Positions 14,056 to 63,772 of a stretch of 64,000 nucleotides of DNA are shown piece after piece. The notes under the pieces were generated by a model, which searched no databases, was not told the origin of the DNA, and worked only from the letters and a program-made list of their open reading frames with translations. Both the position numbers and the translations under genes were made by a program. How positions within the stretch are numbered: the first letter of the stretch is position 1; every line of letters starts with the position of its first letter. The stretch comes from Candidatus Methylomirabilota bacterium (GTDB lineage: Bacteria; Methylomirabilota; Methylomirabilia; Methylomirabilales; Methylomirabilaceae), in NCBI GenBank assembly GCA_003104975.1, contig PQAM01000002.1, forward strand, positions 1 through 64,000, written 5' to 3'.

Positions 14056-14148
14056 GCCCCCTCACCTCAGTCCTCTCCCCCTGGAAGGGGAGAGGAGGTT
14101 TTTCTTGTTGCCCCTCGCCCCTTTGGGGAGAGGGTGCGGGTGAGGGGA
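14056..14148. repeat. Dispersed CT/GA-rich palindromic element, family C
   Basis: Outer arms ccccctcacc and ggtgagggg, with inner palindromes tcctctcccc/ggggagagga and cgcccctttggggag. Related copies at 41121-41173 and 49191-49326. Confidence 0.8.
14071..14103. terminator. Terminator-like hairpin after glgC
   Basis: Perfect 10-bp stem tcctctcccc / ggggagagga with a six-base loop, followed on the plus strand by gg and a run of five T. Located 20 bases after the glgC stop, inside the family C repeat. Confidence 0.6.
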
Positions 14149-24552: not shown

Positions 24553-24719
24553 AGGCAACTCCACGTTCGACGCGGCGTAGGCGCGCGGGAAGACCAAACG
24601 CGGACCTTATAGCATCGGAGATCGATTGCCGTCAATGCTGATCTGGGGACTTAGAACAGCAACAGACTTCGCAATCATGCGATGCTCCTGGTCATGCCTC
24701 GAAAGTCCCTCTCACGACC

Positions 24720-24818
24720 GTCATTGTGAGGGAGCGTAGCGATCGAAGCAATCCCACCGTTCTTCGCAACCTCAAGAACGCTGAGATTGCCGCGCTCCCT
24801 TCGGTCGCTCGCAATGAC
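24720..24818. repeat. Dispersed palindromic element, family B (GTCATTGYGAG...CTCGCAATGAC)
   Basis: Inverted arms gtcattgtgagggagcg and cggtcgctcgcaatgaca with internal gcaatccc/gattgc arms. It fills much of the 400-base gap between cofG and folE, where I see no gene. Relatives at 32745-32834, 41209-41292 and 57380-57486. Confidence 0.82.
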
Positions 24819-24952
24819 ACATTCCTATCGCTGTTGTTGAAGGCGGAGGTTTTCCTTGCACATCCCGGTAGGCTCATTTAGAATTTCACAGAGGGTCTGA
24901 TTGTGGTGACAGGTCAACATCACGCATTGCGGTCGCAATAAGGAAAAGGCGT

Positions 24953-32744: not shown

Positions 32745-32834
32745 GTCATTGCGAGCGACCAACGGGAGCGCGACAATCTCACCGTCGTTGTCTTGAAAGA
32801 CTGTGAGATTGCTTCGGCTACGCCTCGCAATGAC
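32745..32834. repeat. Dispersed palindromic element, family B
   Basis: gtcattgcgagcgacc ... gcctcgcaatgacgtc with internal gacaatctc / gagattgc arms. Lies between the thiolase start and the secA stop. No gene is visible in this 159-base gap. Confidence 0.82.
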
Positions 32835-41208: not shown

Positions 41209-41292
41209 GCGAGGAGAAGTCGAAGCAATCTCATGATCTTTCAGGACAACAACGGTGAGATCGCCGCGCTCCCAGTGGTCACTCGCAATGAT
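41209..41292. repeat. Dispersed palindromic element, family B (partial)
   Basis: gcgaggagaagtcgaagcaa at the left, ggtgagatcgccgcgctccc and actcgcaatgatag at the right; right end matches family B, left end degenerate. Confidence 0.6.
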
Positions 41293-51840: not shown

Positions 51841-52236
51841 TTAGCGCTTTGAGAATTGGAAGCGTGCGCGTGCTCCCTTTTGACCGTACTTTTTCCGCTC
51901 TTTCACGCGGGGATCCCGCGTCAGGAATCCCGCCTTGCGAAGCGCCGGCCGCAAGGAGGCATCGACAACCAGGAGGGCTCGGGCGATGCCCAGTCGAACG
52001 GCGCCGGCCTGACCGGTCAATCCTCCACCGGCCACGTTGGCGCGCAGATCGAACTTCCCCTCTATCCCGGCCGCCTTCAGAGGCTGAACCGCTATGATCT
52101 GATGGGTCGGTCGGTTGAAATAGTCCTGCAGAGACCGCCGGTTCACTGTCATCTTCCCGTCACCCGGCGCCAACCATACCCTTGCTACCGACGACTTTCG
52201 TCGGCCCGTCCCGTACAACGCACCCTCTGCTGGCAT
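51841..52236 (-). CDS. rpsI: Ribosomal protein S9
   Basis: 131 residues. [36 protein letters not shown] and the basic end RARFQFSKR, whose final Lys-Arg contacts P-site tRNA. Follows rplM by nine bases, the usual L13-S9 pair. Confidence 0.97.
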
Positions 52237-52245
52237 AGCTGAGAT

Positions 52246-52719
52246 TTATCCCTCCTTCACTGTCCCTTCGACCCCGCTCAGGGCAGGCTGCTTGACAAAC
52301 GGTGTCGGCTGCTGCGACGCGTGCGGGTGCGTGGGCCCGGCGTAGACCTTGAGCTTACGGAACAGCGCATCACCCAGCTTCGTTCTCGGCAACATTCCGC
52401 GAATAGCCGCCTCCAACACTCGCGTGGGGTGGCTCTTCAACATCTGTTCAGCCGTTGTGGTCTTTAGCCCACCCGGATAGCCGGAATGGCGGTGATACTG
52501 CTTATCCTTTATCTTCTTGCCCGTCAATACCACCCGCTCGGCATTCACAATAACCACAAAGTCTCCGGTGTCCAGGTGGGGGCTGAAGATCGGCTTGTGT
52601 TTGCCTCGCAAAAGTACCGCCACCTCTGTGGCGAGCCGTCCCAGCACCTGTCCCGACGCATCGATCAGATGCCAACGCTTATCGATCTCGTTCTCATTGC
52701 AATGTATGGTCTTTGACAT
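52246..52719 (-). CDS. rplM: Ribosomal protein L13 with repeat-derived C-terminal extension
   Basis: 157 residues from ATG 52719 (MSKTIHCNENEIDKRWHLID). HRHSGYPGGLKTTTAEQML, RVLEAAIRGMLPRTKLG and LKVYAGPTHPHASQQP are diagnostic. L13 is normally about 142 residues; the extra end, FVKQPALSGVEGTVKEG, is encoded by a dispersed palindromic repeat (52264-52290). Confidence 0.96.
   Translation of the reverse strand: MSKTIHCNENEIDKRWHLIDASGQVLGRLATEVAVLLRGKHKPIFSPHLDTGDFVVIVNAERVVLTGKKIKDKQYHRHSGYPGGLKTTTAEQMLKSHPTRVLEAAIRGMLPRTKLGDALFRKLKVYAGPTHPHASQQPTPFVKQPALSGVEGTVKEG
52264..52290 (-). repeat. Translated CCCTTCGACCCCGCTCAGGG repeat at the rplM 3' end
   Basis: cccttcgaccccgctcaggg followed by caggctg; on the minus strand it encodes QPALSGVEG of the L13 tail. 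Related to 18335-18360. Confidence 0.68.
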
Positions 52720-52815
52720 AACGCACACGACTCCTCTTAGTGTACCACCCCACAACCGCTAGACAATAGTCGCTAGAGCCAGAAGTGTCAAGAAAAAAAT
52801 AGGAGGCTCGGACGG

Positions 52816-55800
52816 CTACGCACCCAGCGCCACGAGCCTTGCCTGAAGTCGCGCGTTCTCCAGCGAAATCACCGCCTGCGAGGTCACCAGTTCTATCGCC
52901 TGGGTCTTTTCAGGGGTAAACATCGCATCCGCCAGACGGTTTTCCAGGTACACCGCACCTACTATCTTCGATTGCCTGACCACCGGCAGACACAGGACAG
53001 AGCGCAATTGCAAGCGCTGCGCCTCAGGATCGTCCCGGAACCCGCTGTCTTGCGCGGCGTTCTGCAGGCTGATCTTCTCCCCGGTCCGGTAGACATAGCG
53101 GACGATCGCTTTACAGATGGCGGTGGTCTCCCCAAGCTCCTGGTTCAGTGCGCCGATCGCTCCACCGTGGCTGACGTGGCCCTCTCCGCGGACCAGCAGT
53201 TTGCCTTCCTCGTCCATCAACAGATAGCCGTGCTGGGCCCCGGAGATTTCGATCAGCGCGTTCATGATCCTTCTGAGCAGAGCATCCTGCTCGGTTTCGG
53301 CCGCAATGGCGAGCGACGACTTCAGGATGTAGTCGATCTCGAGCTCGCGTAGCGTCGCGGATGCTGCGGCTTCAGTTTGCGCGTGGGGATACAAAGATTG
53401 CTCTTCCTCACAATACTCCGGATATTTTTCGATAAGCTGGGTCTCCTTACGCTCCGTCCGGCATTTCCGATATAGGCGTACCGCCTCGATAAAGTAGACC
53501 CGCTCGGTCCCTTTGCCCTGCTGCAGCAGCAGCTCGCCCAAACATTCGTTGAGATGCCCTTCCAGAAATGTATAGTGCTGTTCATGGGCGACCTCGATCG
53601 CCTCCAGGTATCGGCTTCGGGCCTCCCTGAATTCGCCGGTGACCCGTTCCAACTCCGCATACAGAAGGGCGAGATACGGCTTCAACAGCGGACCCAAGGC
53701 CGCCCACGTCTCAACCTTGTTAATGATGGGCCGGATCTCCGCCAGCAGCGCCTCCCGATTGGTCAGGCCCAGCCCCTTTTCATACCGTTTCAACGCATTC
53801 AACACCAGGAAGACGTGCCATTGTCGCTTCAGGACGTTGTCCGTCAGACCGGACAGATAGCGACGGACCCCGATCAGATACCGGTCGGCCTCGGCATAGT
53901 CACCCAGGTAGTAATGAGCCAGCCCCATGTGAACATAATAACTTCCGGCGCACGCGACGTGATTTTCCCGCTCCCAGTGCCGCAGCTTCTCATCAATGGG
54001 GATCTGCGACCCATTCCGCTTCATCGGCTCGATCCACCCCGCCTGCATCGCCTCGGCCAGCCCAACGGAGAAGGAGAGGTGGTACCGATGGGAGAATTGC
54101 AGGCACTCTTTGGCGGCATCCTCGATAATGGAGAGATCGGCCCCCTGGACCTGGAGGTTCCACATCAGGGGGCCGTAGGACAGACCGGCGTTATACAGAT
54201 CGCCACAGTTTTTCCCGCACTGGATCGACTTGAGGCAGTAGTCCACGATCTGTCGCGGGTGGCTTCGCGAGTGCATATTGCACCAGACGATCCCGTTCAT
54301 CCCCCGCGTGGCGCCGAAGGTGTTGGGGTATTGTGCCGAGAGGTCGCGGGCCAGGTCTTCATATTTGAAGGCCTGCTCGAACTCCTCCTGTTCGCCAAGC
54401 TGCAGCCCCATAATGCTGAACGAATAGATGGTCGATTCGTCCATCCCCCCCGACAGACAATGCTGGGTCGACTGGGCGGCCGAAAGGTATAGTTGCGGCA
54501 CCAGGCCGGACATGTACAGATCGGGGATCAACTCGCTGTAGAAGGCCAGCTCGATCTTGCGCTTCCGGTCGGTGGTAAAGGGCATATTCAGGATGGTGTT
54601 CCAGATATCGATCCCCTGTGAGGCGATCTCGGTCATCAATGCCCTTCTTCGCCGGTCGGCTTCCTCAGCGTGATCGGGAATCGCCTTGCCGAAATAGGCC
54701 AGGCCCCGGTTGGCCGTCTCGATCGCCTTGATGAAATTGCCTACGGATGAGAGCGAGGTGGTCTGCTCGGCCAGACACTCCGCCTTGTCCAGATCGGCCT
54801 GGGCATGGTCAAGGAGGCGGGCAAGCAGTCGCTCGGAGTTTTCGTAGTTGCCACACATCAGCTCGGTCTTGGCCGCCTTCTGGTAGATCCGGAACGTGCG
54901 CTCATAGTGGTCCGCCTCCCAGCAGTCGTCCGGCAAGAGCTCTTTGCCGAGATTGAAGTACTCATTGGCCGCTTTGGTGGCCAGCGAACTGAGCGCCTTG
55001 TTGCCGGCATGGTAGTTGACATCCGACAGGAAATAAGCCGCCTCGGCGCCCGGATTTTCTTCCCGTCCCAGATTGAGATGGGAGACGATGGTAAAGAGGT
55101 TTTCGAGAGCTTCGAGCTCCGCACCCTCTGGGACCGTGGCGAGAAGATAGTACCCAACCTGTCGGTGGATCGACCGGCGCACCTCGGCCGGGACGGCGGC
55201 GAGCACCGCCTCTTGAACCCGATCGTGGATGAACTGCAGGTTGTTCTTGCTCTCGGTCAGCAGTCCCTGCCTGAGGGCCGGCTTCAAGCACTCGAAGGTC
55301 TCCACCAGCGTCGTCCCCCTGATCGCGGAGATCTCGGTGGAGGAAAAGGTGTTGCCCATGCAGGCGCAGTATTTCAGCAGCTCGATCAGGTCCGGCGGCA
55401 GCTTCTGGATCTTGGCGCTGAACAGGGCGACTACGGTGGTGGGCATGCGGGACTGCCTGATCTTATTGAGGTCCCATCGCCACTGCCCGTCGGAGTCGAG
55501 GAAGAGGAGATTCTCGTTATGCAGGTATGACAGGCTTTCGCTCACAAACAGGGGGTTACCTTCGCTGAGCGTGGTGATAAAGTCCGCGAGCGCCTTGGTC
55601 TGCGAGCGGGGGAAGTCGAGGATGTAGGAGACCATCTCGTGGCAGTGCTGCGGCTTCAGCGGCTCGAGCCTGATCTCCTTCAGCGGCCACCCTCCCTCGC
55701 TGGCGGCCCCGATCAACTTGGACAGGGGATGACTCGGATCGACTTCGTTATGGCGATAGGCGCCCAGCAGGAACAGATACGGATGGTCTTTGTGGTTGGC

Positions 55801-57228
55801 CAGGATGTTGGTCAGAAAGTCGAAAGAGGCGACATCGCACCACTGCAGGTCGTCGATGAAGAGGGTCAACGGGTTTTCCTCGCTGGCCAGACAGGTCAAG
55901 AACCGGTCGAAGACATCATGGAACCGGTTGAGGGATTCCACAGGCGGCAGCGGTTTGACCCCCGGTTGCGGTCCGATCAAGCGCTCCAGTTCCGGGATCA
56001 CGTCGGTCAGGACCTTGCCGTTCCTGTCGACGGCTTGCATTATCTTGGTCTCCCAGAGCCCAGCCCGCTCGTCGCTTTCGGTCAGGAAGGTCCGCACCAG
56101 ATTCTTGAGCGCCTGGATCAGCGAGCTGTACGGGATATTTTTCTGGTAGACATCGAACTTTCCCGAGGTGAAATACCCTCGGTGCTCCACGATCGGCCGC
56201 TGCAGCTCCTGAATCAGGCGAGTCTTGCCGATGCCGGACAGGCCCGAGATAAAGAGCGACCGGAATCCCCCCCGGGCCACTCGCTCATACTCCCGCAGGA
56301 TCAGCTCGGCCTCTCGGTCGCGGCCTACCATCTTCGAGATGAATGTGACCCGCTGGGTGCATACCGTTTTTTCGAGCGGGAAGTCGCGGATAGTGCCGAT
56401 GGCGGAAAATTCATCCCGGCAGCGCACCAGATCGGCCAGCAGCCCGGTGGCGCTTTGGTAACGTTTTTCCGGTTGCTTGTGCATCAGTTTGGCCACGATC
56501 TTACTCAAGACAAGTGGGATGTGCGGATGGCCTTCGTGGATTTTGAGCGCTTCTTCGGCCAGATGGGAGTGGATCAGTTCAAGAGGATCATCGGAAACAA
56601 ACGGAAGCTGACCGGTCAACAGTTCATAGAAGATGATCCCGAGCGCATACAGATCTGAAGAGAAGCCCACCCGGTGGTTGATCCGTCCGGTCTGCTCCGG
56701 GGAGGTATAGGCGAGCGTACCCCTGATGAAGGAACGATCATAGATGAAGTGGCTGACATCCCGCACATCCACGGCACTGATGAAGTCCATCAGCCGCACG
56801 TCCAGCGTGCTGAAGTTGACGAGGATATTGTTGGGCTTGACGCCGCCATGGATGATCCCGGCTTCGTGGACGATCTCCAGTACCCGGGTGAGCTTGCTTG
56901 CCAGCGTAAAAAAATCCATCAGAGAAATCGGGGACTTCGCCTCCATCAGCCGGCTGAGGGTCACCCCGTCAAAATAGCTCTGGGTGATGAAGCAGATCCC
57001 TTCCGTGACACCGAAGCCGATAGGCGTAATTACCAACGGATCGTCCAGGACCTTGAGGTGGGCGATCTTCTGGGTGACTTGGGCCTGTTTGTAATCGGAC
57101 AGGCTGATGGCCTTGAGGATCTTGAGCACCAGCAGCCGGTCGGGATTTTTCTTGTGGCAGGCCTTAAAGACGGCAGACTGAGGAGCCTCGGAGATTTTTT
57201 CCAACAGCTCATAATTTAAAATCCGCAT
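52816..57228 (-). CDS. Degenerate protein kinase / AAA-STAND ATPase / GAF signalling protein
   Basis: 1470 residues. Residues 1-270: serine/threonine kinase fold with VLK Lys and MDF, but the catalytic loop reads IIHGGVKPNNIL instead of HRDxKPxN, so the catalytic Asp is lost, and the Gly-rich loop is degenerate (SEAPQSAVF). Residues about 300-600: ATPase with Walker A SGLSGIGKTRLIQEL and Walker B LTLFIDDLQWCD. Residues about 600-1270: helical repeats of TPR-like character. Residues about 1310-1465: GAF domain. No histidine kinase domain, unlike many relatives. Probably a scaffold or switch. It lies divergent to the 14-PAS kinase. Confidence 0.85.
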   Translation of the reverse strand: MRILNYELLEKISEAPQSAVFKACHKKNPDRLLVLKILKAISLSDYKQAQVTQKIAHLKVLDDPLVITPIGFGVTEGICFITQSYFDGVTLSRLMEAKSPISLMDFFTLASKLTRVLEIVHEAGIIHGGVKPNNILVNFSTLDVRLMDFISAVDVRDVSHFIYDRSFIRGTLAYTSPEQTGRINHRVGFSSDLYALGIIFYELLTGQLPFVSDDPLELIHSHLAEEALKIHEGHPHIPLVLSKIVAKLMHKQPEKRYQSATGLLADLVRCRDEFSAIGTIRDFPLEKTVCTQRVTFISKMVGRDREAELILREYERVARGGFRSLFISGLSGIGKTRLIQELQRPIVEHRGYFTSGKFDVYQKNIPYSSLIQALKNLVRTFLTESDERAGLWETKIMQAVDRNGKVLTDVIPELERLIGPQPGVKPLPPVESLNRFHDVFDRFLTCLASEENPLTLFIDDLQWCDVASFDFLTNILANHKDHPYLFLLGAYRHNEVDPSHPLSKLIGAASEGGWPLKEIRLEPLKPQHCHEMVSYILDFPRSQTKALADFITTLSEGNPLFVSESLSYLHNENLLFLDSDGQWRWDLNKIRQSRMPTTVVALFSAKIQKLPPDLIELLKYCACMGNTFSSTEISAIRGTTLVETFECLKPALRQGLLTESKNNLQFIHDRVQEAVLAAVPAEVRRSIHRQVGYYLLATVPEGAELEALENLFTIVSHLNLGREENPGAEAAYFLSDVNYHAGNKALSSLATKAANEYFNLGKELLPDDCWEADHYERTFRIYQKAAKTELMCGNYENSERLLARLLDHAQADLDKAECLAEQTTSLSSVGNFIKAIETANRGLAYFGKAIPDHAEEADRRRRALMTEIASQGIDIWNTILNMPFTTDRKRKIELAFYSELIPDLYMSGLVPQLYLSAAQSTQHCLSGGMDESTIYSFSIMGLQLGEQEEFEQAFKYEDLARDLSAQYPNTFGATRGMNGIVWCNMHSRSHPRQIVDYCLKSIQCGKNCGDLYNAGLSYGPLMWNLQVQGADLSIIEDAAKECLQFSHRYHLSFSVGLAEAMQAGWIEPMKRNGSQIPIDEKLRHWERENHVACAGSYYVHMGLAHYYLGDYAEADRYLIGVRRYLSGLTDNVLKRQWHVFLVLNALKRYEKGLGLTNREALLAEIRPIINKVETWAALGPLLKPYLALLYAELERVTGEFREARSRYLEAIEVAHEQHYTFLEGHLNECLGELLLQQGKGTERVYFIEAVRLYRKCRTERKETQLIEKYPEYCEEEQSLYPHAQTEAAASATLRELEIDYILKSSLAIAAETEQDALLRRIMNALIEISGAQHGYLLMDEEGKLLVRGEGHVSHGGAIGALNQELGETTAICKAIVRYVYRTGEKISLQNAAQDSGFRDDPEAQRLQLRSVLCLPVVRQSKIVGAVYLENRLADAMFTPEKTQAIELVTSQAVISLENARLQARLVALGA

Positions 57229-57293: not shown

Positions 57294-57323
57294 ACCATAG
57301 AAAGCTTTTACCCATCCTGTCAA
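57294..57323 (-). promoter_or_regulatory. Possible promoter for the degenerate kinase-ATPase gene
   Basis: Minus strand TTGACA (57318-57323), 18-base spacer, TATGGT (57294-57299). Perfect -35, moderate -10; leader of about 60 bases. Confidence 0.5.
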
Positions 57324-57379
57324 GGGCAAATGAAGCCCGAGAACGGAGATCGATCATGCAACCCATTCGTTTGTCCGTC

Positions 57380-57486
57380 ATTGAGAGCACCCAAAGGGTG
57401 CGCGGCAATCTCACTGTCCTGTCCTCGTGAGCTTGGAGAAATAGTGGCAAAGAACGGGTGGATTGCTTCGCGACGCTCGCAATGAC
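57380..57486. repeat. Dispersed palindromic element, family B (diverged)
   Basis: gggtgcgcggcaatctcact in the left part and ggattgcttcgcgacgctcgcaatgacg at the right. Lies in the 538-base divergent gap (57229-57766), which contains no gene but two promoters. Confidence 0.65.
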
Positions 57487-57693: not shown

Positions 57694-57721
57694 TTGACAA
57701 TTCTATAGCCCCGATTATTAT
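57694..57721 (+). promoter_or_regulatory. Sigma-70-type promoter for the 14-PAS kinase
   Basis: TTGACA (57694-57699), 16-base spacer, TATTAT (57716-57721). Predicted start near 57728. The leader contains ggaggggatg before the ATG at 57767. Confidence 0.68.
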
Positions 57722-57766: not shown

Positions 57767-60700
57767 ATGAAGGCGGAGACCGCAAAGCTCTTCGATAGTT
57801 CTATCCTCGGCAACACCCAAGAAACCCTCGATTTCATCACCAACATCCTGGAATCGTCCACCGAGTACTCCATCATCGGCAAGGACCTGGACGGCACCAT
57901 CCTGCTCTGGAACGAGGGCGCGCGGCGGCTGTACGGCTACGACCCGGAGGAGGTCGTCGGCCGGGCCAACTCCTCCATCCTGCACACGCCCGAGGACGTG
58001 GCCGCGGGCATACCCCGCAAGGCCATGGAGAGCGCGCTATACATGGGCAAGTGGGAGGGGACGATTAAGCGGGTCCGCAAGAACGGTGAGCAGTTCAGCG
58101 CCCGCGTCGTCATCACGCCCCGCCACGACGCCCAGGGCCAAACCATCGGCTTCCTGCTGATCTCCAAAGACATCTCGGGCGAGCTCCGCTTCAGCCAGCA
58201 GGTCAGCGAGGCCAAGCTGTTCGACCGGGCTATCGTCGGCAACGCGCAGGAGGCGGTGGACTTTATCACCAACATCCTGGAGTCGTCCACCGAGTACTCC
58301 ATCATCGGCAAGGACCTGGACGGCACCATCCTGCTCTGGAACGAGGGCGCGAGGCGGCTGTACGGCTTCGAACCGGAGGAGGTCGTCGGCCGGGCCAACT
58401 CCTCCATCCTGCACACGCCGGAGGACGTCGCTACGGGCAAACCCCGCGAAATCCTGGACAGCGCGCTGCGCGACGGCAAGTGGGAGGGGACGATCAAGCG
58501 GGTCCGCAAGAACGGTGAGCAGTTCACCGCCCGCGTGGTCATCACGCCGCGCCACGACGGCGAGGGCGCACCCATCGGCTTCCTGCTGATCTCCAAAGAC
58601 ATCTCCGACGAAATCCGCCTGACCGAGGAGCTGAAGTCGACCCAGTTCTACACCCGATCGCTCATTGAATCGAACATGGACGCCCTGATGACGACCGATC
58701 CGCTGGGGCTGATCACCGACGTCAACCGGCAGATGGAGGCGCTCACCGGCTGCAGCCGGGATGAGCTGATCGGCACACCGTTCAAGCGGTTCTTCACCGA
58801 CGCGGAGCAGGCCGAAAAAGGGATCCATCTGGTGCTCCGCGAAGGGCGGGTGGCCAACTACGAGCTGACGGCACGGGCCAAGGACGGCCGGCGCACCGTC
58901 GTCTCGTACAACGCCTCCACCTTCCGCGACGCGCACGGGCGGCTGCAGGGCGTCTTCGCCGCGGCCCGCGACATCACCGAGCAGAAAAAGCTGGAGCAGC
59001 AACTGCGGGAATCGCAGTCGTATAACCGGGGTCTTATCGAGGCCTCGGTCGACGGCCTCATCACGGTCGATCCCACCGGGACGATCACCGACGTCAACGA
59101 GCAGATGTGCCGGATGACCGGCTATACCCGCGAGGAGCTGATCGGCACGCCGTTCGCCGACTATTTCGCCGACCCGGAGCGGGCTACCGCCGGCGTCAAC
59201 GAGACGTTCGACAAGGGGGTCGTCACCAACTACGTGCTGGTCTTACTCACGCGGCAGGCGAAGAAGCTGCGGGTCTCGTTTAACGCCTCGGTGTTCAAGG
59301 ACCCGTCGGGCAGCACCCGCGGCATCTTCGCCTCGGCCCGCGACATCACCGAGCAGTCGGCGCTGCAGACGCAGCTTGCCGAAGAGCGGGCCTACAACCG
59401 GGGTCTCATCGAGGCCTCCCTCGACGGCCTGATCACCGTCGATCCGATGCTGACCATTACCGACGTCAACGAGACGATGTGTCGCATGTCGGACTACACG
59501 CGAGACGAACTGATCGGGTCGCCGTTCTCGCAGTACTTTACCGATCCGAAGCGGGCGGCCGAAGGCGTTCGCCTCACGCTGGACAAGGGGGCGGTCACCA
59601 ACTACGAGTTGCTGCTCAAGACCAAGGACGGCCGCGAAAGCCTGGTCTCATTCAACGCCGCCATCTTCAAGGACCAGACCGGCGCCGTGCGCGGCATCTT
59701 CGCCTCGGCCCGCGACATCACCGATCAGGCAAAGCTGCAGGGCCAGTTGGGCGACGAGCGAACCTACAACCGCGGCCTGATCGAGGCCTCGGTGGACGGC
59801 CTGGTCACCGTCGATGACTCGATGATCATCATGGACGTCAACGAAACGATGTGCCGGATGGCCGGCCGGCCGCACAACCAGCTCGTCGGCTCGTCGTTCC
59901 CCGGCTATTTCGTCGAGCGCGAGCGGGCCGCCGAGGGCGTCCGGTTGACCTTCAACGAAGGGGCCGTCACCAACTATGTCCTGACGCTGCAGGCGGCAGA
60001 CGGGGCGCAGGTGCCGGTCTCGTTCAACGCCGCGGTGTTCAAGGACACGTCAGGCACAGTCCGCGGCATCTTCGCCTCGGCCCGCGACATCACCGCCCAG
60101 AAACGGCTGGAGGCTCAGCTCCAGGCGTCGCAGACCTATACGCGCTCCCTCATCGAATCCAACATCGACGCGCTGATGACCACCGACCCCCTGGGGATCA
60201 TCACCGACGTCAACCAGCAGATGGAGTCCCTCACCGGCTGCAGCCGCGACGAGCTGATCAGCACCCCCTTCAAGACCTACTTCACCGACCCGGATCGGGC
60301 GGAAGAGGGCATCCGCCTGGTGCTCCGGGAGGGGAAGGTCACCAACTACGAGCTGACCGCCCGCGCCAAGCACGGCAAGGAGACCGTCGTCTCGTACAAC
60401 GCTACCACCTTCGCCGACCGGGACGGCAAGCTCCAGGGCGTGTTCGCCGCCGCCCGCGACATCACCGAGGCGAAGAAGCTTGACCGGCAGTTGCGCGAGC
60501 AGCAGACCTACCTGCGCGGCCTCATCGAATCGTCGGTGGACGGGCTGGTGACCGTCGATCCGCACGGCACCATCACCGACGTCAACGATCGGATCTGCCA
60601 GATGACCGGCTACACCCGCGGCGAGCTGGTCGGCACCCCCTTTGCCGACTACTTCACCGAGCCGGACCGGGCGCGGGAGGGGGTCCAGCGGACGTTTGAG

Positions 60701-63700
60701 GCCGGCTTCGTCACCGAGTACGCGCTGACGCTCGTCGCCCGCACCCGGCGGCTCTTGCAGGTCTCATTCAACGCCTCGGTGTTCAAGGAGCCCACCGGCG
60801 CCGTGCGCGGTATCTTCGCCTCGGCCCGCGACATTACGGACCGCGTCCGGCTGGAGGAGCAGCTCCGCGAGCAACAGACCTACCTGCGCGGCCTCATCGA
60901 GTCCTCGGTGGACGGCCTGATCACGGTGGACCCCGAGGGGTTCATTACCGACGTGAACGAGCAGATGTGCCGCATGACCGGCTACACCCGGGCCGATCTG
61001 ATCGGCACCCCCTTCAAGCGCTACTTCATCGAGCCGGAGAAGGCGGATGCCGGCGTCAAGCGGACCTTCGCCGAAGGGGTGGTTACCAACTACGCCCTGG
61101 TGCTCGTGACCAAGGGCGGTCGCAAGGCGACCGTCTCCTTCAACGCCTCGATCTTCAGGGGCGGAGACGGGCGCGTGCAAGGTATCTTCGCCAGCGCCCG
61201 CGACATCTCTGAGCAGGCGAGGCTGCAGACCCAGCTCGCCGAACAGCAGGCCTACAACCGCTCGCTGATTGAGGCCTCGGCCGACGCCCTGTTCGCCATC
61301 GCCCCCGACGGCATCATCACCGACGTGAACGCCGAGGCCACGCGGCTGACCGGGTATACCCGCAAGCACCTGATCAACTCGACCTTCGGCACCTACTTCA
61401 CCCAGCCGGAGCTGGCCAGGTCCGGCGTACAGCAAACGCTGCGCGAGGGCCGCGTCATCGGCTACGAGCTGGTGCTGATCACCCGCCACGGGCGACGGAT
61501 CGCGGTCAGTTTCAACGCCGGCGTCTTCACCGACGCGGCCGGCGCGCCGCTGGGCATCCTGGCGGCCGCCCGCGACATCACCGAGCAGAAAACGCTCGAA
61601 CAGCAGTTGCGCGACCAGCAGTTCTACACCCGCTCCCTCATCGAATCCAACATCGACGCGCTGATGACCACCGATCCCCTGGGGATCATCACCGACGTCA
61701 ACCAGCAGATGGAGTCCCTCACCGGCTGCAGCCGCGACGAGCTGATCGGCACCCCCTTCAAGACCTACTTCACCGACCCGGATCGGGCGGAAGAGGGCAT
61801 CCGCCTGGTGCTCCGGGAGGGGAAGGTCACCAACTACGAACTGACCGCCCGCGCCAAGCACGGCAAGGAGACCGTCGTCTCGTACAACGCTACCACCTTC
61901 GCCGACCGGGACGGCAAGCTCCAGGGCGTGTTCGCCGCCGCCCGCGACATCACCCAGACCAAGCAGGCGTCGCAATACGCCCGGTCGCTGATCGAGTCGA
62001 GCTTGGACCCGCTGGTCACCATCAGCCCGGACGGCAAGATCACCGACGTCAACGAGGCCACGATGGCGGTCACCGGCGTGCCCCGCGAGAAGCTGATCGG
62101 GACCGACTTCTCGAGTTACTTCACCGAGCCGGGCAAGGCGCGCGAGGGGTACAAGCAGGTCTTCGAGAAGGGGATCGTCACCGACTACGCCCTCACGATC
62201 CGGAGCACCACCGGGACGCTCACCGACGTTCTGTACAACGCGACGGTCTATAAGGACGACAAAGGCAACGTCCTGGGCGTCTTCGCCGCCGCCCGCGACA
62301 TCACGCAACAGAAGAAGGCCGGCGAGGAGCGCTCACGGCTGGCCGCCATCGTCGACTCCTCGGCCGATGCCATCATCGGCAAGACGCTCGAGGGCGTCAT
62401 CACGAGCTGGAACCGGGGCGCCGAGCGGATGTACGGCTACGCCGCATCCGAGGCGATCGGCCGGCACATCTCGATCCTCCTGCCCGCGCACATGCGGCAG
62501 GAGGAGCAGCGCATCCTGCAGCGGCTCAGCCAGGGCGAGATCATCGAGCCGTACGAAACCGTGCGTATCCGCAAGGGGGGCGAGATCATCGAGGTCTCCG
62601 TCACGGTCTCTCCGGTGCGGGACGCTGAGGGCAAGATCGTGGGCGCCTCGAAGATCTCGCGCGACATCACCGCCCAGAAGCAGGCCTCTCAGTATGCCCG
62701 CAGCCTGATCGAGTCCAGCCTGGACCCGCTGGTCACCATCAGCCCGGACGGCAAGATCACCGACGTCAACGAGGCCACGGTCAAGGTCACCGGCTGCAGC
62801 CGGGAGACGCTCATCGGGACCGACTTCTCCAGCTACTTCACCGAGCCGGAGAAGGCGCGCGAGGGCTACCTCCGCGTCTTTGCCGAGGGGTTTGTGTCGG
62901 ACTACCCGCTGACGATCCGGGCCAAAGACGGACGGCTGACCGACGTCCTGTACAACGCGTCGGTCTACAAGGACGCGCGCGGCAACGTCCTGGGCGTCTT
63001 CGCCGCCGCCCGCGACGTGACCGAGCGCAAACGGTTCGAGGTGGCGCTTCAGGAAAAGAACGTCGAGCTGGAGCGCGCGAGCGTGGCCAAGGACCGGTTC
63101 CTGGCCAGCATGTCGCACGAGCTGCGGACGCCGCTCAACGCCATCATCGGCTTTACCGGAACGCTGTTGATGAGACTCCCCGGCCCGCTGACGGGCGATC
63201 AGACCGATCAGCTCCAGACGATTCAGTCCGCAGCCAAGCATCTGCGGTCGCTGATCAACGACCTGCTGGACCTCGCCAAGATCGAGTCTGGCAAGACGAA
63301 GATCACCATCGAGCCGGTGGATTGCGCCAGCATCCTGGACGAGGTGGCGACGACGCTCCGCCCGCTGGCCCTTGCGAAGGGCCTGCAGTTCGAGGTGAGC
63401 GCAGCGAAGCCGGACTGCGTCCTGCAGACCGACCGCCGGGCCCTCAGCCAGATCCTGTTGAACCTAACCAGCAACGCTATCAAGTTCACGGAGCAGGGCC
63501 AGGTGATCCTGCGGGCCGAGTGCACAAGATGCGACGGAGGCACCCAGGCCCGTATCAGCATACGCGATACGGGGATCGGCATCGCAGCCGAGGCCCAGGC
63601 CCGGCTGTTTCAGGCCTTCCAGCAGGTCCACGACCCCGACACCCGGCCTACCGAAGGGACCGGTCTAGGGCTGTACCTCAGCCAGCGCCTGGCCGAGCTG

Positions 63701-63772
63701 TTAAACGCCCGCATTGAGTTCCAGAGCGAGGAGGGCAAAGGCAGCACCTTCACCCTGGTCCTGAAGGCTTGA
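57767..63772 (+). CDS. Soluble histidine kinase with 14 tandem PAS domains
   Basis: 2001 residues, no signal or membrane segment. PAS1 (1-147) and PAS2 (148-293) are close copies (ESSTEYSIIGKDLDGTILLW). PAS3-PAS11 follow with a 124-residue period, starting near 294, 418, 542, 666, 790, 914, 1038, 1162 and 1286, each with the pattern ITDVN...GTPF..YF and a closing FAxARDIT. PAS12, 13 and 14 start near 1404, 1525 and 1643. PAS13 is of a different type (SWNRGAERMYGY). HisKA has SMSHELRTPLNAI near 1781; ATPase has NAIKF, DTGIGI and GTGLGLYLS. No Cys/His pattern indicating haem or flavin was recognised. A response regulator follows 13 bases later. Confidence 0.93.
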   Translation: MKAETAKLFDSSILGNTQETLDFITNILESSTEYSIIGKDLDGTILLWNEGARRLYGYDPEEVVGRANSSILHTPEDVAAGIPRKAMESALYMGKWEGTIKRVRKNGEQFSARVVITPRHDAQGQTIGFLLISKDISGELRFSQQVSEAKLFDRAIVGNAQEAVDFITNILESSTEYSIIGKDLDGTILLWNEGARRLYGFEPEEVVGRANSSILHTPEDVATGKPREILDSALRDGKWEGTIKRVRKNGEQFTARVVITPRHDGEGAPIGFLLISKDISDEIRLTEELKSTQFYTRSLIESNMDALMTTDPLGLITDVNRQMEALTGCSRDELIGTPFKRFFTDAEQAEKGIHLVLREGRVANYELTARAKDGRRTVVSYNASTFRDAHGRLQGVFAAARDITEQKKLEQQLRESQSYNRGLIEASVDGLITVDPTGTITDVNEQMCRMTGYTREELIGTPFADYFADPERATAGVNETFDKGVVTNYVLVLLTRQAKKLRVSFNASVFKDPSGSTRGIFASARDITEQSALQTQLAEERAYNRGLIEASLDGLITVDPMLTITDVNETMCRMSDYTRDELIGSPFSQYFTDPKRAAEGVRLTLDKGAVTNYELLLKTKDGRESLVSFNAAIFKDQTGAVRGIFASARDITDQAKLQGQLGDERTYNRGLIEASVDGLVTVDDSMIIMDVNETMCRMAGRPHNQLVGSSFPGYFVERERAAEGVRLTFNEGAVTNYVLTLQAADGAQVPVSFNAAVFKDTSGTVRGIFASARDITAQKRLEAQLQASQTYTRSLIESNIDALMTTDPLGIITDVNQQMESLTGCSRDELISTPFKTYFTDPDRAEEGIRLVLREGKVTNYELTARAKHGKETVVSYNATTFADRDGKLQGVFAAARDITEAKKLDRQLREQQTYLRGLIESSVDGLVTVDPHGTITDVNDRICQMTGYTRGELVGTPFADYFTEPDRAREGVQRTFEAGFVTEYALTLVARTRRLLQVSFNASVFKEPTGAVRGIFASARDITDRVRLEEQLREQQTYLRGLIESSVDGLITVDPEGFITDVNEQMCRMTGYTRADLIGTPFKRYFIEPEKADAGVKRTFAEGVVTNYALVLVTKGGRKATVSFNASIFRGGDGRVQGIFASARDISEQARLQTQLAEQQAYNRSLIEASADALFAIAPDGIITDVNAEATRLTGYTRKHLINSTFGTYFTQPELARSGVQQTLREGRVIGYELVLITRHGRRIAVSFNAGVFTDAAGAPLGILAAARDITEQKTLEQQLRDQQFYTRSLIESNIDALMTTDPLGIITDVNQQMESLTGCSRDELIGTPFKTYFTDPDRAEEGIRLVLREGKVTNYELTARAKHGKETVVSYNATTFADRDGKLQGVFAAARDITQTKQASQYARSLIESSLDPLVTISPDGKITDVNEATMAVTGVPREKLIGTDFSSYFTEPGKAREGYKQVFEKGIVTDYALTIRSTTGTLTDVLYNATVYKDDKGNVLGVFAAARDITQQKKAGEERSRLAAIVDSSADAIIGKTLEGVITSWNRGAERMYGYAASEAIGRHISILLPAHMRQEEQRILQRLSQGEIIEPYETVRIRKGGEIIEVSVTVSPVRDAEGKIVGASKISRDITAQKQASQYARSLIESSLDPLVTISPDGKITDVNEATVKVTGCSRETLIGTDFSSYFTEPEKAREGYLRVFAEGFVSDYPLTIRAKDGRLTDVLYNASVYKDARGNVLGVFAAARDVTERKRFEVALQEKNVELERASVAKDRFLASMSHELRTPLNAIIGFTGTLLMRLPGPLTGDQTDQLQTIQSAAKHLRSLINDLLDLAKIESGKTKITIEPVDCASILDEVATTLRPLALAKGLQFEVSAAKPDCVLQTDRRALSQILLNLTSNAIKFTEQGQVILRAECTRCDGGTQARISIRDTGIGIAAEAQARLFQAFQQVHDPDTRPTEGTGLGLYLSQRLAELLNARIEFQSEEGKGSTFTLVLKA
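60143..60466 (+). repeat. Near-identical internal duplication, copy 1 (PAS7)
   Basis: 324 bp that differ from 61631-61954 at only three positions by direct comparison (gac/gat for Asp, agc/ggc giving Ser/Gly, gag/gaa for Glu). All other PAS repeats of the gene are far more diverged. Confidence 0.93.
61631..61954 (+). repeat. Near-identical internal duplication, copy 2 (PAS11)
   Basis: Second copy of the 324-bp segment, offset by 1488 bp, which equals four PAS periods of 124 codons. Points to recent gene conversion or recombination between repeats. Confidence 0.93.

Follow-up and report, generated by a model that had tools for sequence, protein, structure and literature searches.

The gene at positions 52816-57228 on the minus strand of the window (the whole analysed stretch of 64,000 nucleotides, which opens contig PQAM01000002.1 of a Candidatus Methylomirabilota bacterium) encodes a protein of 1470 amino acids (aa), in which a kinase-like domain is followed by a STAND-type ATPase, helical repeats and a GAF domain; a histidine kinase (HK) domain is absent. 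In our view it is probably a soluble protein of the HstK/CP1 type that works as a signalling switch, combining a long-established pseudokinase with a STAND/GAF part and an output through an HK phosphorelay. It belongs to a clade in which the Asp of the HRD motif is absent from all 51 sampled members, which come from Methylococcales, Desulfobacteria, Acidobacteria, a metagenome-assembled genome (MAG) of Bacteriovorax and the window's own genus.

Domain architecture and catalytic residues

The reading frame is open over its entire length, with no internal stops. Residues 6-258 (56455..57213; all features of this gene lie on the minus strand) exhibit a Hanks-type kinase fold: they match the Pfam Pkinase family (E 1.4e-29), and a confident AlphaFold2 model of residues 1-292 (predicted local distance difference test, pLDDT, 89.4) has its best PDB matches, according to Foldseek, in PknB (template modelling score about 0.77). 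The AAA_16 or STAND-type ATPase occupies residues 300-487 (55768..56331; Pfam AAA_16, E 2.5e-36), with both the Walker A (GLSGIGKT) and the Walker B (LFIDDLQW) motifs intact, and is separated by a long helical region from the GAF domain at residues 1312-1457 (52858..53295; Pfam GAF_2, E 2.5e-15), 13 residues past which the protein ends. No Pfam match to HisKA or HATPase was found in the 1470 aa.

The original prediction had described a catalytic loop HGGVKPNN instead of HRDxKPxN, with the VAIK-like Lys and an MDF motif kept, in a pseudokinase whose attached ATPase and GAF domains were intact. The Pfam matches, the Walker motifs and the family alignment agree with this; the loss of the HRD Asp was recognized correctly, but the description was incomplete, as it left out two further losses, those of the αC Glu and of the DFG Gly. 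The degenerate loop, IIHGGVKPNN, corresponds to residues 125-134 (56827..56856), with Gly129 at the position of the HRD Asp, and the retained VAIK-type residue is Lys36 of LVLK (57121..57123). Lys54 (57067..57069) stands at the position of the αC Glu, MDF is present at residues 147-149, and residues 148-150 (56779..56787) read DFI instead of DFG, Asp148 being retained and Gly changed to Ile150.

These changes were compared between the 51 Asp-less clade members and 17 members of an outgroup. The HRD Asp position is occupied by Gly in 42, Ser in eight and Asn in one protein of the clade, as opposed to Asp in all 17 outgroup proteins; the αC Glu position by Lys (41), Gln (eight) or Arg (two), as opposed to Glu (14) or Gln (three); and the DFG Gly position by Ile (44), Val (four), Leu (two) or Thr (one), as opposed to Gly (ten), Ser (six) or Glu (one). 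Normal phosphotransfer by the kinase domains of the clade is unlikely. Lys131 and Asn134 of the loop and Asp148 are invariant (51/51), 47 of the 51 proteins retain the VAIK Lys (the remainder being two Arg and two gaps), and the STAND Walker motifs were detected in 49; the nucleotide site of these pseudokinases may survive. With Lys36, Asn134 and Asp148 kept, the domain may bind ATP/Mg without transferring phosphate, and would control the state of the STAND ATPase, the helical repeats and the GAF domain, either through its conformation or through protein binding.

It is quite unlikely, in our opinion, that the domain is still an enzyme, in which the part of the HRD Asp has been taken over by another acidic residue or by another chemistry (e.g. 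of the AMPylation type, as in SelO). Pseudokinases with other chemistry do exist (SelO, SidJ; PMC12599244), the three residues named above are kept, and Asp154, a clade-specific acidic residue at DFG+6, is nearly invariant (50/51). However, Asp154 is located in the activation segment, outside the catalytic loop, and is replaced by His in the protein from locus L222; the αC Glu and the DFG Gly are gone as well, and no acidic substitute occurs at the catalytic-loop Asp position in any of the 51 aligned clade members, in keeping with the loss originally proposed. A structural scaffold that binds no nucleotide and leaves all sensing to the ATPase and GAF domains is rather doubtful. The change of the αC Glu to Lys or Gln would fit it, and proteobacterial members outside the clade lack both the VAIK Lys and the DFG Asp, hence the family tolerates the loss of nucleotide ligands; yet the invariance of Lys131, Asn134 and Asp148 is difficult to account for if neither nucleotide nor metal is bound, and a pseudokinase that may still bind nucleotide is the reading we prefer.

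The Asp-less loop is widespread. The scan of the species-genome collection was not exhaustive, and among the matches listed a close layer comprises at least 12 loci with 39-74% identity to the window protein; the HRD Asp is missing in every one that includes the kinase region, and nearly all loops read HGG, that of Bacteriovorax reading HGS and that of Methylotuvimicrobium HKS. A distant layer comprises at least 68 listed loci, mostly cyanobacterial, at about 28-32% identity, with HKD or HRD in nearly all (the exceptions being L099, L102 and L108). When the search was widened to the order of Methylomonas lenta (Methylococcales) and the class of a Desulfobacteraceae MAG (L038), 40 loci of Methylococcales were found to have 35 HGG, one HGN and four HKS loops, and Desulfobacteria with a readable loop to have HGG, HGS, HKS, HKG or HCG. 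A sequencing oddity confined to the window is rejected, as HGG is also present in the congener G010 and across the clade; restriction of the clade to methane oxidisers is likewise rejected, as Desulfobacteria, Acidobacteria and Bacteriovorax carry clade genes.

Of the known systems, HstK/cbSTKIII kinases (e.g. Anabaena Alr2258, Pkn40 and Pkn41; PMC2176072) share with the window protein an N-terminal kinase, a central ATPase region and a GAF domain, and their cyanobacterial members are about 30% identical to it over the full length. The Hanks-type fold and at least one GAF domain are present here, but the fused HK is absent, and the loop is HGG and not the 'KD' that was uniform in the members known in 2007 (PMC2176072); the αC Glu and the DFG Gly are not retained either. 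Because both the fused HK and the KD loop fail, the window protein appears to represent an HK-less pseudokinase branch related to HstK/cbSTKIII and not a standard member. The CP1 family of Ser/Thr kinases and pseudokinases, named in 2025, comprises soluble proteins in which the kinase is joined to a COG3899-type ATPase with GAF/PAS, and about 40% of them are pseudokinases by motif (PMC12599244). In the window protein the attached GAF (FhlA) or PAS domain is represented by GAF_2, and AAA_16 at 300-487, along with full-length family similarity, may correspond to the COG3899-type ATPase. Having lost the HRD Asp, the protein counts as a pseudokinase as defined by loss of the VAIK Lys, HRD Asp or DFG Asp. 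In the CP1 paper the motif loss is scattered, whereas the present clade has a single fixed substitution pattern and is linked to two-component and KaiB partners. Proteobacterial proteins annotated as 'Trifunctional serine/threonine-protein kinase/ATP-binding protein/sensor histidine kinase' (e.g. L032 from Microvirga) have the same kinase-ATPase-helical-GAF order, but unlike the window protein they keep HKD, lack the VAIK Lys and the DFG Asp and have a fused HK. The pattern of a kept HRD Asp with the VAIK Lys and DFG Asp lost was observed in L032, L033, L035, L036, L037 and L084, all proteobacterial and outside the clade, and represents a second, different degeneration inside the same family.

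The PADLOC kinase models PD-T4-6 and mad6 match the kinase domain, which might suggest a role in anti-phage defence, with a STAND or kinase protein as the effector. We reject this explanation as extremely improbable: the matches are confined to generic models of the kinase fold, and the neighbours are two-component, kai and housekeeping genes.

Order of losses and the neighbouring histidine kinase

In our tree, a quick one built with a simple model, so that deep placements are provisional, the Asp-less clade is monophyletic with a support of 100, and its stem is long, at 0.64 changes per site. Full support was also obtained for a group of three, consisting of the window protein, its 92% identical congener from G010 and the protein from L038, which is nested with a support of 91 among Desulfobacteria with a fused HK. 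The fused HK is absent in the window protein and L038 and present in most clade members; L222 is a second HK-less case, and the C-terminal outputs have been exchanged within the clade, being an HK, GGDEF-EAL (L041), a multi-PAS HK-REC-Hpt (L044) or none. Since the HK-less members are nested inside those with a fused HK, the tree places the loss of catalysis first, as an ancient event that preceded the dispersal of the family over several bacterial groups, and the loss of the fused HK in the window lineage later, as a recent one. A tie between the two losses does not hold, as nearly the whole Asp-less clade retains a fused output, usually an HK. In the window's phylum the clade gene was found in only two of 95 genomes (a third match, L221, scores as outgroup proteins do), pointing to horizontal acquisition.

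The STAND gene is under purifying selection, and its kinase domain behaves like the remainder of the protein: in comparison with G010, the ratio of nonsynonymous to synonymous substitution rates (dN/dS) is 0.09 over 1015 comparable codons and 0.11 in the kinase domain. It is therefore not a decaying copy, and a decaying pseudogene is rejected both by these values and by the existence of a full-length orthologue at 74% identity.

The candidate partner is encoded divergently at 57767..63772 on the plus strand. Its 2001-aa product comprises 14 PAS stretches, HisKA and HATPase_c (PAS-HK below), and Pfam confirms the original description of a STAND protein that lacks its own HK next to a divergent 14-PAS kinase. 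In L038 the orthologue lies directly upstream of the STAND gene, and the order on one strand is multi-PAS HK, STAND gene, response regulator and REC-HK, with identities to the window counterparts of 79% (1403 aa), 74% (1461 aa), 52% (118 aa) and 39% (296 aa), respectively. The occurrence of the same module in different phyla supports the predicted cooperation of the STAND protein with the PAS-HK. For most clade members the output would be exerted in cis, as a phosphorelay from the fused HK, and for the window lineage and the related L038 in trans, via the separate multi-PAS HK and its response regulators. The proposal that the two genes together replace a fused kinase-ATPase-GAF-HK protein is supported as far as their adjacency in L038 is concerned, but the HK domain is not the old one detached: a split-off ancestral HK is rejected because the domain is mostly 24-27% identical to the fused HKs or does not match them at all.

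Several observations weigh against the cooperation. The two genes are paired in two genomes only, and their divergent arrangement is not conserved even within the genus: in G010 the STAND gene is inverted next to rplM and the PAS-HK was not detected, this genome being 83% complete, and in G007 a PAS-HK with 79% identity is present but the STAND gene is missing. The figure of 24-27% applies to most clade members compared (37% in the case of L044), and no match was found between the HK domain of the window PAS-HK and the fused HKs of the nearest Desulfobacteria. Besides, genomic adjacency does not prove interaction. Chance neighbourhood, with the HK-less STAND protein being a truncated relic or having another partner, would account for the unstable pairing and for the presence of a separate promoter-like site for each gene (TTGACA-18-TATGGT at 57294..57323 on the minus strand for the STAND gene; TTGACA-16-TATTAT, 11/12, at 57694..57721 on the plus strand for the PAS-HK gene; both are matches to the sigma-70-like consensus only). 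We nevertheless find it unlikely, given the adjacency of the same genes in the Desulfobacteraceae MAG at 52-79% identity, the purifying selection on the STAND gene and the fact that both HK-less orthologues stop just past the GAF domain; cooperation between the two proteins is the reading that we retain.

The multi-PAS kinase of G007 (L127, 985-5904, contig C42), 79% identical to the window PAS-HK, reaches only 46% in the HK domain and is followed by several receivers, from which a swap of the HK domain is apparent. The promoter-like site of the STAND gene lies within a 48-bp block also kept in G010. A comparison of window positions 51841-57228 with L002 shows that two species of the genus have the STAND gene in opposite orientations with respect to rplM-rpsI, the breakpoint lying just upstream of that site. 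Short dispersed intergenic repeats are common to the window and G010, and there is a second repeat of the CCTCACCC type; in the window they are found near 24691-24834, 32745-32834, 41248-41291 and 57376-57420, and also at 14060, 14126, 41125, 49195 and 49304.

The KaiB connection

Just beyond the window, on the same contig (63786-68085 of contig C2 of G000; L118), the PAS-HK gene is followed by genes for a response regulator, a REC-HK-REC protein, KaiC (66206-67756) and KaiB (67780 to the contig end); the two receiver genes and kaiC-kaiB were missed by the original prediction because of their position past the window edge. This KaiB obtains 92.9 bits with the Pfam KaiB model (cut-off 27) and E 1.5e-29 with KaiB structures, and falls under both cut-offs of the NCBIfam circadian KaiB equivalog (98.7 of 110 and 96.5 of 145.3 bits). 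Non-cyanobacterial KaiBC-linked two-component systems (PMC5520375, PMC6627678) likewise have kaiC-kaiB after an HK and receivers, but the window locus adds the STAND pseudokinase, and the KaiB of Methylococcales is fused to a receiver and mostly lacks a detectable KaiC.

In these gammaproteobacterial methanotrophs, a REC-KaiB fusion is encoded by the gene that follows the fused STAND-HK; such fusions are found in L040 (14224-14925), L042 (7522-8217), L043 (14096-14797) and 41 further Methylococcales genomes. Among 251 genomes of this order, 39 of the 44 REC-KaiB genes lie directly downstream of a clade gene on the same strand, and the clade gene is present in 42 of the 44 genomes with REC-KaiB versus 37 of the 207 others (Fisher p 2.6e-23, shared ancestry uncorrected). 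The fusion from L040 obtains 32.5 bits with Pfam KaiB (cut-off 27) and E 4e-9 with KaiB structures, and no match to the NCBIfam circadian KaiB equivalog is listed for REC-KaiB; the AlphaFold2 model of the KaiB part is weak (pLDDT 69.5), but Foldseek still ranks KaiB first. KaiB is said to occur only alongside full-length KaiC (PMC5520375). With one query sequence and E up to 1e-15, KaiC was detected in only 13 of the 44 REC-KaiB genomes, several of the negatives being near-complete assemblies. Further kaiB genes, beside PAS/HK or LuxR-type regulator genes, were observed in L223 (6880-9102, G060:C48) and at G000:C14:100318-100560, with no KaiC within the stretch fetched.

The cognate receiver in Methylococcales would most likely be the REC-KaiB fusion encoded next, and in the window this role may fall to the products of the response regulator, REC-HK-REC and KaiC/KaiB genes of the cluster. 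We tentatively suggest, with some reserve, that in methane oxidisers the pseudokinase-gated STAND-HK phosphorylates REC-KaiB as the output of a KaiC-independent phosphorelay, and that the window carries a dispersed form of this circuit, with a detached multi-PAS kinase and an attached kaiC-kaiB. The lack of correction for shared ancestry in the counts argues for caution, as does the location of the window kaiB four genes beyond the PAS-HK, which makes its link to the STAND gene weaker than in Methylococcales; moreover, no KaiB was seen in the flanks of the Desulfobacteria members or of the HKS paralogues, nor within the flanks examined of the distant-layer loci.

Significance for pseudokinase and KaiB biology

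A pseudokinase of the present type is of an already known kind. The clade-wide fixation of its inactivation, the module with a detached HK and the REC-KaiB operon are apparently novel, as we found no mention of them in the open-licence literature. For the most part, bacterial pseudokinases are sequences that have no known function. The loss of catalysis fixed in one clade across several phyla, together with purifying selection and identifiable partners, means that cultivable methanotrophs, Methylomonas for instance, allow a direct test of pseudokinase control. The REC-KaiB link may be an exception to the published rule that ties KaiB to full-length KaiC, and it offers a concrete hypothesis for a role of KaiB outside clocks.

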